This document shows, in pieces, positions 56,923-64,000 of a stretch of DNA of 64,000 bases. Each line of letters starts with the position of its first letter. Positions within the stretch are counted from its first letter, which is position 1. The notes below the pieces were generated by a model. The model worked only from the letters and a program-made list of their open reading frames with translations, was not told the origin of the DNA and did not search any database. Source of the DNA: Weeksellaceae bacterium TAE3-ERU29 (GTDB taxonomy: Bacteria; Bacteroidota; Bacteroidia; Flavobacteriales; Weeksellaceae); contig JAHUUM010000003.1 in assembly GCA_019218445.1 (NCBI GenBank), positions 62,001 through 126,000 on the forward strand, in the 5' to 3' direction. Both the position numbers and the translations under genes were made by a program.

Positions 56923-58317
56923 ATGGGAGAGAAACAAAAAACGCTAAAATCAGAGGTTACGCTGGAGGGAGTAGGTTTACATACAGGGAAAGCTGTAACT
57001 ATGACATTAAAACCGGCTCAGCCTAATACAGGGTTTGTTTTTGTTAGAACAGATTTAGAGGGAACACCGACAGTAGAAGCAGATGCTAATTATGTAACCT
57101 TTACAGAAAGAGGTACTATTTTAGAGAAAAAAGGAGTTAAAATACATACAACAGAACATATTTTAGCTGCTCTTTCCGGATTGGATTTAGACAATGCAAT
57201 TATAGAATTAAATAATGTAGAGCCACCGATTATGGACGGGTCTGCCAAGTTTTTCGTAGAAGCAATAGAAAAAGCAGGAGTAGAGGAGCAAGATGCCGAA
57301 AGAGAATATTACGAAATAAAAGAAATAGTAACTTATACCGATAAAGAAACAGGTTCTGAGATTACAGCCATTCCTGCCGATAAGTTTGAGGTTGCTACAA
57401 TGGTAGATTTCGGGACAAGAGTATTAGGAACACAAAATGCGACATTAAAAAATATTTCAGATTTTAAAGATGAAATTGCTGATGCCAGAACATTTAGCTT
57501 TTTACATGAGTTAGAACAGCTTTTAAACGCTGGTTTAATAAAAGGAGGCGACATAAGCAATGCCATTGTGTATGTAGATAAAGAAATTACACCGGAAACA
57601 GAAGAAAAATTAAAAAAAGCCTTTAATAAAGAATCTGTATCTATAAAGCCTAACGGTATATTAGATAATTTAACCTTACATTACCCAAATGAGGCTGCAC
57701 GTCATAAACTATTAGATGTAATAGGAGACTTAGCTTTAGTAGGTAAAAAAATAAAAGGTAAAATAATTGCCGTAAAACCCGGGCACCTTGTCAATACGCA
57801 ATTCGCCAAAAAATTGAGTAAACAAATAAAAGAAGAAGAACGTAAAAACGTTCCCAATATAGATTTAAATGCAATCCCGGTTTATGATGTAAACCAAGTA
57901 ATGGAATTACTACCGCACAGGCCACCGTTTCTTTTGATAGATAAAATCATGTATCTGGATAAAAAAACAGTAGTAGGTGTTAAAAACGTAACCATGAACG
58001 AGCCGTTTTTCGTAGGACATTTTCCGGCAGAACCTATTATGCCGGGAGTTTTGCAAGTAGAAGCCATGGCACAAGCCGGAGGAATTTTATTTTTAAGTGA
58101 TGTTCCGGATCCTAAAACTTACTCAACTTATTTTATGAAAATAGACAAAGTTAAGTTCAAGAAAAAGGTAGTGCCGGGAGATACACTCATTATAAAATGC
58201 GAACTATTACAACCTATAAGAAGAGGAATTGTAAATATGCAAGCAACCGGTTACACCAATGGAGAAATAGCAGTAGAGGCAGAGATGATGGCAAGAATAG
58301 TTAAAAACAAAGAATAA
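56923..58317 (+). CDS. lpxC/fabZ: Fused UDP-3-O-acyl-N-acetylglucosamine deacetylase and 3-hydroxyacyl-ACP dehydratase
   Basis: Bifunctional protein coupling the committed lipid A step to fatty-acid elongation. Residues 1-305 are LpxC: GVGLHTGKAV, the zinc-site region HTTEHILAALSGL near 77, and HKLLDVIGDLALVG near 262. Residues 315-464 are FabZ: VMELLPHRPPFLLIDK near 326 and the active-site GHFPAEPIMPGVLQVEAMAQ near 366. The fusion is characteristic of Bacteroidota. Both parts look intact. Confidence 0.97.
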   Translation: MGEKQKTLKSEVTLEGVGLHTGKAVTMTLKPAQPNTGFVFVRTDLEGTPTVEADANYVTFTERGTILEKKGVKIHTTEHILAALSGLDLDNAIIELNNVEPPIMDGSAKFFVEAIEKAGVEEQDAEREYYEIKEIVTYTDKETGSEITAIPADKFEVATMVDFGTRVLGTQNATLKNISDFKDEIADARTFSFLHELEQLLNAGLIKGGDISNAIVYVDKEITPETEEKLKKAFNKESVSIKPNGILDNLTLHYPNEAARHKLLDVIGDLALVGKKIKGKIIAVKPGHLVNTQFAKKLSKQIKEEERKNVPNIDLNAIPVYDVNQVMELLPHRPPFLLIDKIMYLDKKTVVGVKNVTMNEPFFVGHFPAEPIMPGVLQVEAMAQAGGILFLSDVPDPKTYSTYFMKIDKVKFKKKVVPGDTLIIKCELLQPIRRGIVNMQATGYTNGEIAVEAEMMARIVKNKE

Positions 58318-60849: not shown

Positions 60850-60922
60850 GCGAAAATAGCTCAGCTGGTAGAGCGCAACCTTGCCAAGGTTGAGGTCGCG
60901 GGTTCGAACCCCGTTTTTCGCT
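60850..60922 (+). tRNA. tRNA-Gly (anticodon GCC)
   Basis: Full cloverleaf: acceptor stem GCGAAAA/TTTTCGC with discriminator T, D-loop AGCTCAGCTGGTAGAGC, anticodon arm CAACCTTGCCAAGGTTG reading GCC, and T-arm with GGTTCGAACCC. CCA is not encoded. Confidence 0.96.
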
Positions 60923-60970
60923 CAGTTAAAAGGATAGTTCTTTAATAGAAATATATTAGGCACACAAGCC

Positions 60971-61054
60971 GCCCGGGTGGTGGAATTGGTAGACACGCAG
61001 GACTTAAAATCCTGTGGCCATTAGGCTGTGCGGGTTCAAGTCCCGCCCCGGGTA
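60971..61054 (+). tRNA. tRNA-Leu (anticodon UAA)
   Basis: Class II tRNA with a long variable arm: acceptor GCCCGGG/CCCGGGT (one G-U pair), anticodon arm CAGGACTTAAAATCCTG reading TAA, T-arm GCGGGTTCAAGTCCCGC, discriminator A. It is 48 nt behind tRNA-Gly; the accessory island begins right after its terminator. Confidence 0.96.
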
Positions 61055-61056
61055 CT

Positions 61057-61336: not shown

Positions 61337-61370
61337 TTGTAGACTATTGTCCGTTGTATATTGTCTACAA
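61337..61370 (+). promoter_or_regulatory. Candidate C-box operator of the controller protein
   Basis: Outer inverted repeat TTGTAGAC-N18-GTCTACAA with two inner TATTGTC copies and a GTCCG centre, ending 17 nt before the GTG start. It resembles the double C-boxes (GACT...AGTCCG...AGTC) of controller proteins of restriction-modification systems. The 240 bp between this site and the tRNA terminator are A/T-rich and hold no gene I can see. Confidence 0.6.
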
Positions 61371-61387
61371 AGTATTGATATTGCAAT

Positions 61388-61600
61388 GTGGATAAAGTTG
61401 AACAAAAGTTAGCTAAAAAAATAAAAGTTCTTCGTAAAGAAAAAGGATGGTCTCAGGAAAGATTAGCGTTTGAAGCTAATATTGATCGTACATACGTACA
61501 AAGTATAGAAAAGGGAGAAAGAAATGTTTCCTTGAAAATACTTGCAAAACTTTCTGAAGCTTTTGGAATAACAATTTCAATGTTAACAAAAGATTTATAA
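61388..61600 (+). CDS. Controller-type (C-protein-like) XRE regulator
   Basis: The 70-residue protein is little more than one XRE/Cro helix-turn-helix: LRKEKGWSQERLAFEANIDR (about 15-34), the recognition helix TYVQSIEKGERN (35-46), then NVSLKILAKLSEAFGI. Length and wording (RTY...IE.GERN.SL) match controller proteins such as C.PvuII, which time expression of restriction enzymes. It starts with GTG; a C-box-like repeat ends 17 nt upstream, and no good ribosome site is seen. Its stop codon shares a base with the ATG of the helicase gene (TAATG), so both are coupled. Confidence 0.85.
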   Translation: MDKVEQKLAKKIKVLRKEKGWSQERLAFEANIDRTYVQSIEKGERNVSLKILAKLSEAFGITISMLTKDL

Positions 61601-63807
61601 TGGGATTAAAAGAAATCAAATATCCGGAGTCTTTGAGGTACTCTTTTAATAAAAAGGAGAAGCCTTATGAGTTTTATTGCGAATCTTTTTCTAACTCAAA
61701 TAAGATAAAATTTTTATTAGGCTATTTTAGCTCTAATGCTTTTCAAAGTTTAATTCCTTCCTTTTGTCAATTCTTACTTAATGAAGGGGAAATAACCTTT
61801 GTGATGAATCATATAGTGTCAAAGGATGATTATGAAGAGTTATTTAATTGTAAGGTTGATGAAGCTCAAGGAGAGAGCATCGACATTTTTAAGGATATTA
61901 AAGAGTTTCGAGATAAGATGTCTCGAGATCGTAAATTCTTTTTTAATTGTTTGAGATATTTAAAAAATCAAGGGAGACTAAAGTTTATAGTTATACGACC
62001 TAAAGGGAGTAGCATGTCTCATTATAAAGAGGCTCTTTTCTATGATGGAGAAGACTGTATTTTTTCGGCAGGAAGTGCAAACTTTACTTGTAATGGATTG
62101 CTTGGCAATGCCGAGAGTATTTCTATTAATAGAAGTTGGGGTGAAAAGTCGGAAAAGTGTAAGATTAAAGAGTTTGAAGAAGAGTATAGAGAGATTGAAA
62201 ATCAGGAATCAAAGAAATATGAGTATTTAAATGCGGATCAATTAAATGTCATTGATAGAGTTTCTGAGGATAAAACCTTAAATGAACTGATAGAAGATGG
62301 AGTTGCTCTGCTTTCTGAAATGAGAGAGAAGGACAAGGATATAGAGTCAATTTTAAAAAAACAAGAGTCTAAGTTTAGAAAAAAAGTAGAAGAATTGGAA
62401 AATAAACCAAGATTTCCGTATCCTAAGCCACGTGATTATCAAGTTGAAGCCTATAATAATTGGGTGGAAAATGGTTATAAAGGTATTTTTGCCATGGCAA
62501 CCGGAACGGGGAAGACACTTACTGCATTGAATTGTGTCATAGAAGAAAGTGTAAAAAGCAACCAAAATATTTTAGTTGTAGTTCCGGGAAAAGAACTAGT
62601 GGAGCAGTGGGAAGATGAGTTAAGACTATGTAACTTTAAGAAACCTATTTTATTATATTCAGGTAATAAAAACATTAAAAAGGATAGAAATTCGATTAAA
62701 CTAAAGAAATATATAAACTTTGAGAATTTAAATATCATTACCACATACGATACATTTAAAAGTAAAACTTTTCAGAGTTTAATAGAAGATATAATTGAAA
62801 AATTTATTTTAATTTTTGACGAGTGTCATAACATGGGAGCCCATCAAGTTATGAAAGCTCTAAAAAATATAGAGGATAAAAAAATTAAAAAAATCGGGCT
62901 TTCAGCTACACCTATAAGAATATGGGATGAAGATGGGGAGAATGAATTTATTGAAGATTTTTTTGACTCAAAACCGCCATATACGTATGAATATTCAATG
63001 GAAGATGCCATCAAAAACGGCTTTTTGTGTAAATATAAATATAGACCATATTTTGCAAGTTTCAATAATGATGAATGGGAAGAATATATGGAACTCACTA
63101 AGCAAATCCCCAAAGCTAAAGAAGGAGAGAAAATTAATACTACAGCGGCTTTAAAAAGACAACTTTTAAAGGATCAGATTGCGAGTAAAAAAATAGTTTT
63201 GAAAGAAGTCATAAAACATATAAAAGAGTCTTTTGTGTTAGATTACAATAACACAATTGTGTATTGCATGAAAGGTAGTAATAATGAAACAGAAGAAAAA
63301 TACATTTATGAATTACAAGACTATATAAAAGAAGAGTTTCCAGAGATTAATACCGCCACATTTACAAGCGAAACAGAAGAGAGAGATTTATTACTCCAAG
63401 ATTTTGAAAATGAGAAAGTGTCAATATTATATGCTATAAAGTGTTTGGATGAAGGGGTGAATATTCCAAAGGTTATGAACGCAATATTTTTAGCAAACGG
63501 TCAAAATTACAGGGAATATGTACAAAGAAGAGGTAGAGTATTAAGAAATTACTCTGATGCAGAAACTAACTTTGTTAAAGAGTATGCTCATCTGTTTGAT
63601 GTTTTAGCAATGCCTACAGTTGACCAATTCAATAGCAATAGAAGCACGGGATTAAATTTAATAGTAAGTGAATTTAAAAGATTATATGAGTTTTATAAAA
63701 ATGCAGAGCAAGAAATATCAGTATTCAATACTTTGGATAATGAACTGAAAAAATATGGATTAACAAAAGAATATATCAAAAATAAAATATTAAAAAATGA
63801 ACAATAG
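61600..63807 (+). CDS. PLD-nuclease/superfamily 2 helicase fusion, putative restriction or defence enzyme
   Basis: The 735-residue protein joins an N-terminal phospholipase-D-type nuclease domain (about 20-200; H141 and K143 in SHYKEALFYDG, then GSANFTCNG at 158-166) to a DEAH-like helicase. Helicase motifs are QVEAYNNW, Walker A ATGTGKT (300-306), DECH (407-410), SAT (435-437) and QRRGRVLR (642-649). A glutamate- and lysine-rich helical linker (about 200-275) separates them; a short helical tail ends the protein. ATP-dependent restriction enzymes with PLD nucleases exist (NgoAVII/CglI type, there as separate chains). It is coupled to the controller gene, which supports restriction or defence. 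DNA target and partner are unknown. Confidence 0.87.
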   Translation: MGLKEIKYPESLRYSFNKKEKPYEFYCESFSNSNKIKFLLGYFSSNAFQSLIPSFCQFLLNEGEITFVMNHIVSKDDYEELFNCKVDEAQGESIDIFKDIKEFRDKMSRDRKFFFNCLRYLKNQGRLKFIVIRPKGSSMSHYKEALFYDGEDCIFSAGSANFTCNGLLGNAESISINRSWGEKSEKCKIKEFEEEYREIENQESKKYEYLNADQLNVIDRVSEDKTLNELIEDGVALLSEMREKDKDIESILKKQESKFRKKVEELENKPRFPYPKPRDYQVEAYNNWVENGYKGIFAMATGTGKTLTALNCVIEESVKSNQNILVVVPGKELVEQWEDELRLCNFKKPILLYSGNKNIKKDRNSIKLKKYINFENLNIITTYDTFKSKTFQSLIEDIIEKFILIFDECHNMGAHQVMKALKNIEDKKIKKIGLSATPIRIWDEDGENEFIEDFFDSKPPYTYEYSMEDAIKNGFLCKYKYRPYFASFNNDEWEEYMELTKQIPKAKEGEKINTTAALKRQLLKDQIASKKIVLKEVIKHIKESFVLDYNNTIVYCMKGSNNETEEKYIYELQDYIKEEFPEINTATFTSETEERDLLLQDFENEKVSILYAIKCLDEGVNIPKVMNAIFLANGQNYREYVQRRGRVLRNYSDAETNFVKEYAHLFDVLAMPTVDQFNSNRSTGLNLIVSEFKRLYEFYKNAEQEISVFNTLDNELKKYGLTKEYIKNKILKNEQ

Positions 63808-64000
63808 AGAAAATATTTTAAGGGCAATATTAAATGATGAAGACTTAAAAAAAGAGTACTGGCCTAAACTAGAAACAGAAGCAATAAGTAATACAACGAT
63901 TAAAAGAGAAAGTGATCGTGAACGTAACATTTACCTAAAATATTTAGCATTACTTTTAGATACTAATACAGATACAAATAGTAGATTATTTAATAATACT
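63797..64000 (+). CDS. Start of an unidentified third island gene (cut by window end)
   Basis: An ATG at 63797 overlaps the last 11 bases of the helicase gene and opens a frame without stop for 68 codons to the window edge. The visible part (MNNRENILRAILNDEDLKKE, then charged and helical residues ending RLFNNT) is hydrophilic, with no signal or membrane segment. No family is recognised from this fragment. The overlap shows it belongs to the same operon. A methyltransferase or DNA-recognition subunit would be expected in such a system, but nothing in the fragment proves either. Confidence 0.7.
   Translation, partial: MNNRENILRAILNDEDLKKEYWPKLETEAISNTTIKRESDRERNIYLKYLALLLDTNTDTNSRLFNNT

Follow-up and report, generated by a model that had tools for sequence, protein, structure and literature searches.

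What kind of system is encoded at positions 61388-64000 of a 64,000-nucleotide stretch of DNA from Weeksellaceae bacterium TAE3-ERU29 (positions 62001-126000 of contig JAHUUM010000003.1, hereafter the window)? An earlier note on this DNA had described a regulator gene, a nuclease-helicase fusion and a third gene, and had taken them for a candidate new restriction or defence system. The contig reaches 152719, so the remainder of the operon could be read downstream. Judged by homology of its proteins, the locus is a DndCDE-PbeABCD phosphorothioate (PT) defence cassette, a known and named system. We consider it likely that this cassette has its effector operon, and not its modification operon, under a controller of the restriction type (C-protein), and that its effector is exchangeable. 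The papers searched did not describe the controller or the socket that it has in common with DptFGH systems, and we regard the locus as a regulated variant of a known system.

The main features are listed below. L002 is the extended locus in the genome of the window, where a position equals the window coordinate minus 59999, and all features with L002 coordinates lie outside the window. Lengths are in base pairs (bp), kilobases (kb) or amino acids (aa).

61339-61368, + strand: predicted operator GTAGACTATTGTCCGTTGTATATTGTCTAC, with GAC-TATT-GTC at 61342-61351 (OL-like), a 4-bp spacer and an imperfect OR-like GTA-TATT-GTC at 61356-61365
61388-61600, + strand: XRE-type, C-protein-like controller, 70 aa, GTG start (by PADLOC and PDB matches)
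61600-63807, + strand: PbeA, 735 aa, with a phospholipase D-type (PLD/HKD) nuclease domain at about residues 20-180 and a superfamily 2 (SF2) helicase at about 275-660
63797-64000 in the window, + strand: PbeB, 73 aa in full, ending at L002:4019, 18 bases beyond the window
L002:4022-6238, + strand: PbeC, 738 aa, zinc-hook ATP-binding cassette (ABC) ATPase
L002:6245-6769, + strand: PbeD, 174 aa
L002:6766-7146, - strand: DndE, 126 aa
L002:7130-9214, - strand: DndD, 694 aa
L002:9217-10566, - strand: DndC, 449 aa

The layout is operator, XRE gene and pbeABCD on the + strand, convergent with dndEDC on the - strand. The stop of the XRE gene and the start of pbeA share one base (TAATG), and pbeA and pbeB overlap by 11 bases, exactly as the earlier note had described. 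The + strand genes are joined by overlaps or short gaps, as expected of a single operon. The open reading frames (ORFs) in the window are genes and not chance, because homologues in the same order occur in other genomes.

PADLOC models matched PbeA over residues 14-719 (E value 2.1e-181), DndC (1e-139) and DndE (1.5e-14). NCBIfam and Pfam scans showed that DndC, DndD and DndE are encoded together at the locus: DndC scored 417 bits with TIGR03183 (cut-off 290), DndD 284 bits with TIGR03185 (cut-off 246), and DndE 101 with PF08870 (cut-off 25) and 64 with TIGR03184, below the cut-off of 72. PbeA matched TIGR04095 (DNA phosphorothioation restriction enzyme) at 8.5e-94, which is below the cut-off of that family. 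Pfam assigned HTH_3 to the XRE protein (8e-17) and ResIII (9e-27), Helicase_C (5e-14) and, below cut-off, PLDc_2 (2e-4) to PbeA. Our first profiles of PbeB, PbeC and PbeD were seeded with the window's own proteins, and the test was repeated without them. A profile of five other PbeA found the window PbeA at 3.4e-163, and profiles from other loci found PbeC at 8.2e-34 (DndD at 2.5e-6) and PbeD at 1.1e-10. PbeB matched a profile of eight other PbeB weakly (E value 0.0019), and related loci carry PbeB ORFs of 67-85 aa (one of 120 aa) in the same position. No match to PbeB or PbeD was obtained in PADLOC, Pfam or NCBIfam. Within residues 250-500, a zinc hook (CFVC at 394 in the window protein) was found in 18 of 18 PbeC (17 CxxC and one CxC) and in none of four DndD.

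The closest described system is DndCDEA-PbeABCD of Haloterrigena jeotgali (PMC6459918), which is the CxC ABC-ATPase system of PMC10853773. Beside dndCDE it carries the same four pbe genes, arranged in the order seen here, and its small proteins are of similar size (PbeB 66 versus 73 aa, PbeD 152 versus 174 aa in the window). In contrast, the window dndEDC genes are convergent with the effector operon, this operon is headed by a C-protein-like controller with a predicted operator, and neither DndA nor DndB was detected among the eight locus proteins scanned. The genome encodes a SufS above cut-off and a NifS/IscS/DndA-like enzyme below cut-off, and IscS is reported to act as a substitute cysteine desulfurase (PMC10853773). 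DptF had no match in the genome at E <= 1e-20.

Whether PbeD is related to DndE was examined by structure. The window PbeD joins the PbeD family by the profile match given above and by hhalign (94.9%), and a family member from locus L035, 20% identical to the window protein, was modelled (mean pLDDT 80). The model matched DndE entries 7x4e (Z 8.8 over 111 residues) and 4lrv (Z 8.5 over 101 residues, 2.8 Å). A mutant DndE entry followed with Z 7.8, F-plasmid relaxosome chains with 6.8-7.0 and other folds with 3.9 or less. The VIA-align comparison re-examined the list from Foldseek and was not an independent search. On the predicted structure of this relative, PbeD qualifies as a DndE cognate. 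The fold result agrees with PMC10853773, where PbeD is termed a DndE cognate and DndE is described as two ribbon-helix-helix units.

PbeA carries H141-x-K143, S159-x-N161 and N170-x-E172, together with TGTGKT, DECH, SATP and QRRGRVLR, which we take to be PLD-type and helicase motifs, respectively. H141, K143, D149, S159, N161, N170 and E172 were invariant in 18 PbeA, as were the helicase motifs; in a separate set of nine PbeA that included a distant member, D149 was not invariant. These residues and the Pfam ResIII and Helicase_C matches bear out the proposal of a PLD nuclease and an SF2 helicase in one chain. The best Foldseek match of a PbeA model (pLDDT 80) was SauUSI (7clg, E value 2.7e-19), followed by XPB helicases. 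SauUSI presumably has the same PLD and helicase make-up. It acts alone, whereas PbeA is one of four effector proteins encoded together with PT genes. Both PbeA, which has been so described, and SauUSI, a solved fusion and single-chain ATP-dependent restriction endonuclease (PMC7913695), take away the novelty that the earlier note had seen in a nuclease and motor in one chain. The intact PLD site speaks for DNA cleavage by PbeA, as argued in PMC10853773, and against the non-cleaving model of PMC6459918.

The small regulator was then compared with known controllers. It matched the PADLOC model Control_protein at 4.5e-20, and its nearest solved structures in the PDB are restriction-modification controllers, namely C.AhdI (2e-10), the 3clc group (6e-10), in which 4iwr is named C.Esp1396I (PMC3758141), and C.BclI (8e-10). 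Its GTG start aligns with the ATG starts of its relatives. By sequence, the regulator is a homologue of restriction-type controllers, and among the ideas of the earlier note the controller role gained most support. With the one-base overlap, the controller forms an operon with a candidate endonuclease gene, pbeA. The controllers of L002, L031, L032 and L035 are 49-80% identical.

The predicted operator has outer arms GTAGAC and GTCTAC, a canonical left site (GAC-N4-GTC, with TATT as the spacer), CGTT between the sites, and an imperfect right site (GTA-TATT-GTC). C.Esp1396I is known to contact GAC/GTC on either side of a TATA spacer, and its right site is the weaker one (PMC3758141); C-protein sites are usually separated by about 4 bp (PMC4321490). 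An operator of 30-31 bp was predicted exactly 19 bp upstream of the start codon in seven of seven loci, four with Pbe and three with DptFGH; between the outer arms lie 18 bp in the window, against 19 bp in each of the six relatives. On its own, the inverted repeat is at chance level (arms of at least 8 in 176 of 500 Markov controls), and it is the conservation of sequence and spacing across loci that argues against chance. In 1.39 Mb of loci that overlap in part, matches to GTNGAC-N18-19-GTCKAC (first N not G) were confined to the regions upstream of controllers, and GTAGAC-N17-20-GTCTAC occurred once in the 2.37-Mb genome (reversed-pattern control, 0). A looser pattern gave one match away from any controller (L117). 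Within 400 bp upstream of dndC, GAC-N4-GTC was found in none of the seven loci, and a lone TAGAC half site lies 226 bp upstream of dndC in the window's genome. The arrangement resembles type II restriction-modification systems with C-proteins (C.AhdI, C.Esp1396I) in the small helix-turn-helix controller, the effector gene directly downstream, and an operator in which GAC-N4-GTC is followed, after about 4 bp, by an imperfect second half. It differs from them since the controller heads a multi-gene PT effector and no operator was found at the modification genes.

A profile of four Pbe controllers was searched in 395 genomes, where 37 had matches at E <= 1e-12, and the surroundings of 13 loci were examined. 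The three best matches besides the window (L100-L102) had the same operator, followed by DptF, DptG and DptH, with dndC, dndD and dndE convergent and some other genes between. DptF, DptG and DptH of L130 all scored above their NCBIfam cut-offs. Other controllers precede a C5 DNA methylase (L109 and L116, Pfam above cut-off) or a Schlafen-group helicase (L136, above cut-off), and, below cut-off, a MAD2-like methyltransferase gene (L132) or a McrB-like gene (L133). To avoid selection by the controller, DptF was searched independently in 395 genomes of the same order. It was above cut-off in four, and three of these had the window-type controller and operator. The fourth (G734) had a different XRE protein of 91 aa. 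This XRE gene, its preceding DNA and a 16-bp palindrome also stand before pbeABCD in Flavobacterium limi. Between these two genomes, blastn gave 83% similarity in the regulator region, 84% in dndE and the available part of dndD, and 64% in the upstream flank, and no effector similarity at E <= 1e-10. Likewise, in nine blastn comparisons of the Pbe loci L031, L032 and L035 with the Dpt loci L129-L131, similarity was confined to 217-276 bp spanning operator and controller, and to the dnd genes and the DNA next to them. Because the similarity spares the effector, each regulator type has seen at least one replacement of the effector between similar ends. The locus resembles DndBCDE-DptFGH (DndFGH) systems in its dndCDE genes, and its relatives pair the same controller, operator and convergent dnd genes with DptFGH; it differs in its effector, PbeABCD, which is said to have no homology with DndFGH (PMC6459918). 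These comparisons suggest that the controller and dndCDE form a frame, or socket, in which relatives hold DptFGH in place of PbeABCD. In a controller tree (17 rows, 70 aa), the seven PT-linked controllers fell on one side of a branch with support 77/99, found in 78% of bootstrap trees; this tree is too weak to date or count swaps.

The second regulator type and its palindrome GGTCGAATTCGACC also occur at L163:17345-17623 (G285) and L164:4282-4551 (G324), where no Pbe or dnd gene was recognised in the fetched 19.5 and 13.3 kb, respectively. In G324 the contig also carries a Pbe operon, about 30 kb from this site. These regulators are perhaps relics of lost cassettes, or have a separate function.

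PbeA was searched with PDLC02706 in two overlapping samples of 395 genomes each, and was found in 10 genomes of the phylum sample (E <= 1e-30) and 15 of the order sample (E <= 1e-100). The 25 loci of a second collection, minus five, gave 20, and 18 from the genome samples made 38 PbeA-homologue loci. Left out were L050-L052 (partial or helicase-only matches) and L029 and L030 (judged by length to be the same contigs as L023 and L024); the 38 include near copies (L034/L043, L045-L047) and loci cut short (L044, L047). Psychroflexus and Flavobacterium are among the hosts. Downstream, convergent dnd genes are present in 11 of the 38 (L002, L023, L024, L028, L031, L032, L033, L035, L043, L048 and L092; the fetched stretch of L024 stops within dndD), some with additional genes between the two operons. 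At L025 they lie upstream of pbe on the same strand. In seven loci (L002, L024, L031, L032, L035, L091 and L092), the 300 bp ahead of pbeA include an XRE gene. Regulators in the Pbe loci were sought with a two-sequence model (E <= 0.01), and further ones may be missed because this model is limited.

Some loci of this survey depart from the window's form. At L031:12443-14637 (a Flavobacterium metagenome-assembled genome), PbeC is in two pieces of 353 and 354 aa and PbeD lies within a 346-aa ORF; this copy may be broken or mis-assembled. L045, L046 and L047 have identical PbeC and PbeD lengths and scores in metagenome-assembled genomes of the unrelated groups Flavobacteriaceae, Thiotrichales and Rhodobacterales, which looks like binning contamination. 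L026 and L027 (G167 and G270) have a divergent PbeA, an upstream gene that is weakly DndC-like (E value about 1e-6) and large extra genes downstream (about 632 and 790 aa), a different Pbe-type layout. In many Pbe operons of Bacteroidota (L019-L022, L036, L038, L085, L087, L088 and L090), a DndA-like cysteine desulfurase directly precedes pbeA. These desulfurase-headed operons had no dndCDE set in the fetched flank, and weak DndC-like matches were present in L020 and L038.

How would such a cassette work? By homology, DndC, DndD and DndE with a housekeeping cysteine desulfurase would place sulphur marks on self DNA. The papers and the conserved residues suggest that PbeC and PbeD may scan DNA as a pair of ABC ATPase and DndE-fold protein, that PbeA may be a translocase whose PLD site probably nicks or cuts DNA lacking the marks, and that PbeB may be a small regulatory subunit. 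The controller would bind the tandem operator before its own start, promoting transcription of itself and pbeABCD at low level and repressing it at high level. By analogy with type II restriction-modification controllers, on entry into a new cell the marks would be laid before the effector appears. The marks can precede the effector because no such site was found at dndC; we infer that the effector would be timed by a C-protein-like switch while marking runs freely. Extended to the order, PT defence in Flavobacteriales may be a regulated socket that is flanked by a controller with its operator on one side and by convergent dndEDC on the other, and that holds PbeABCD or the non-homologous DptFGH. 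Two controller types would each serve both effectors; the shared controller would imply that both, as with type II endonucleases, have to be delayed until self DNA is marked; and PbeABCD would here be an active restriction machine, in contrast to the harmless inhibitor without cleavage known from archaea. We put this extended form forward tentatively, at somewhat below an even chance.

Several observations weigh against these readings. The strongest of them is published: in a haloarchaeon, pbeABCD was harmless without PT, PT was required for activity and viral DNA was uncut (Xiong 2019, PMC6459918). There is then no obvious need for delayed expression, and should pbeABCD be non-toxic without PT here too, the role of the controller would be dosage and not protection of the host. 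PbeC had no Pfam match and weak ones in other libraries. The PADLOC PbeC models scored the window DndD (1e-132) better than the window PbeC (2e-17), and so do not identify PbeC. HHalign found no link by sequence profile between PbeD and DndE (probability 1.6%), and Foldseek of the PbeD model gave 4lrv at an E value of only 1.2. The window controller shares 49-56% identity with the other six that are PT-linked and 54-60% with those before Schlafen-group helicase genes, a McrB-like gene and a methyltransferase operon, and so is not closest to the PT-linked ones by identity. Only four of the 11 convergent Pbe loci have this controller; two others have another XRE gene and five none detected. In a DndD tree (14 rows), Pbe and Dpt rows were not separated (split support 49/22), and this tree is too weak to give the direction, date or number of swaps.

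Could the regulator be simpler than a C-protein switch? XRE proteins of about 70 aa are often plain repressors, and in NCBIfam the closest families, each matched below cut-off, comprise antitoxins, repressors and other regulators. An ordinary DndCDE-PbeABCD cassette with a simple autorepressor, acting in dosage or phage response without C-type activation or delay, would also fit the lack of pbeABCD toxicity without PT (Xiong 2019, PMC6459918). However, C-proteins are closest both among solved structures and among PADLOC models, the two-part operator has a canonical left site and, some 4 bp further on, an imperfect right one, as for C.Esp1396I (PMC3758141, PMC4321490), and elsewhere relatives of the controller stand in front of genes for a C5-methylase or for other modification or defence functions. 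We regard the autorepressor as rather unlikely. That pbeABCD and dndCDE are independent neighbours merely sharing a defence hot spot seems to us improbable: they are convergent neighbours in 11 loci of several genera, and dnd stays when the effector changes. Against this count, 26 of the 38 Pbe loci have no clear dndCDE set in the fetched flank (short in some), other genes separate the two operons in some loci, dndCD was within 10 kb for only 233 of 553 PbeAC (Xiong 2019, PMC6459918), and the pairing has been questioned (Rakesh 2024, PMC10853773).

The resemblance of a C-protein and a PLD-helicase to type II and ATP-dependent restriction had led the earlier note to propose a new system and to suggest reading past 64000 for a methyltransferase. 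The partner found there is instead DndCDE phosphorothioation, and no clear methyltransferase was seen among the eight scanned genes up to hisS. A PADLOC type II methyltransferase model does match DndC (5e-86), weaker than the DndC models (1e-139). The note had named a match of the whole operon to a named defence type as evidence against novelty. The whole operon matches DndCDE-PbeABCD (PMC6459918), and we reject a new restriction type, with or without a methyltransferase partner, as extremely improbable. What stands of the earlier reading is the controller, the fusion and a restriction-like, ATP-driven defence, which was right in kind; the new system and the one-chain novelty do not. In the literature searched, limited to passages of papers open without subscription, neither Pbe nor Dpt was connected with a controller or an XRE gene.

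The locus is bordered by the following features.

60850-60923, + strand: tRNA-Gly (ARAGORN), left border of the locus
60971-61055, + strand: tRNA-Leu (ARAGORN), left border of the locus
from L002:11162, outside the window and beyond dndC: a gene that we take to be hisS

The two tRNA genes (60850-61055) are context outside the system. In two of three congeneric genomes (G741 and G743), efp adjoins hisS at about 150 bp, and in the window's genome 11.5 kb lie between them, holding a presumably YceI-like gene, the two tRNAs and the system. In G742 the distance is 16.7 kb, where no Pbe or dnd gene was seen by eye and no family scan was made. Integration directed by the tRNAs was not supported, as the ends tested shared no direct repeat of more than 11 bp. 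Further upstream, a 464-aa ORF at 56923-58317 presumably encodes an LpxC-FabZ fusion, which is usual in Bacteroidota.

Whether PbeABCD cuts DNA, and how PT cassettes spare a new host, is disputed between PMC6459918 and PMC10853773. An effector-side-only controller common to Pbe and Dpt bears on both questions: a role in timing the effector would predict that Pbe is toxic in the absence of PT. The paired loci, in which the effector differs behind a similar regulator and similar dnd genes, offer a ready comparison of the two effectors.

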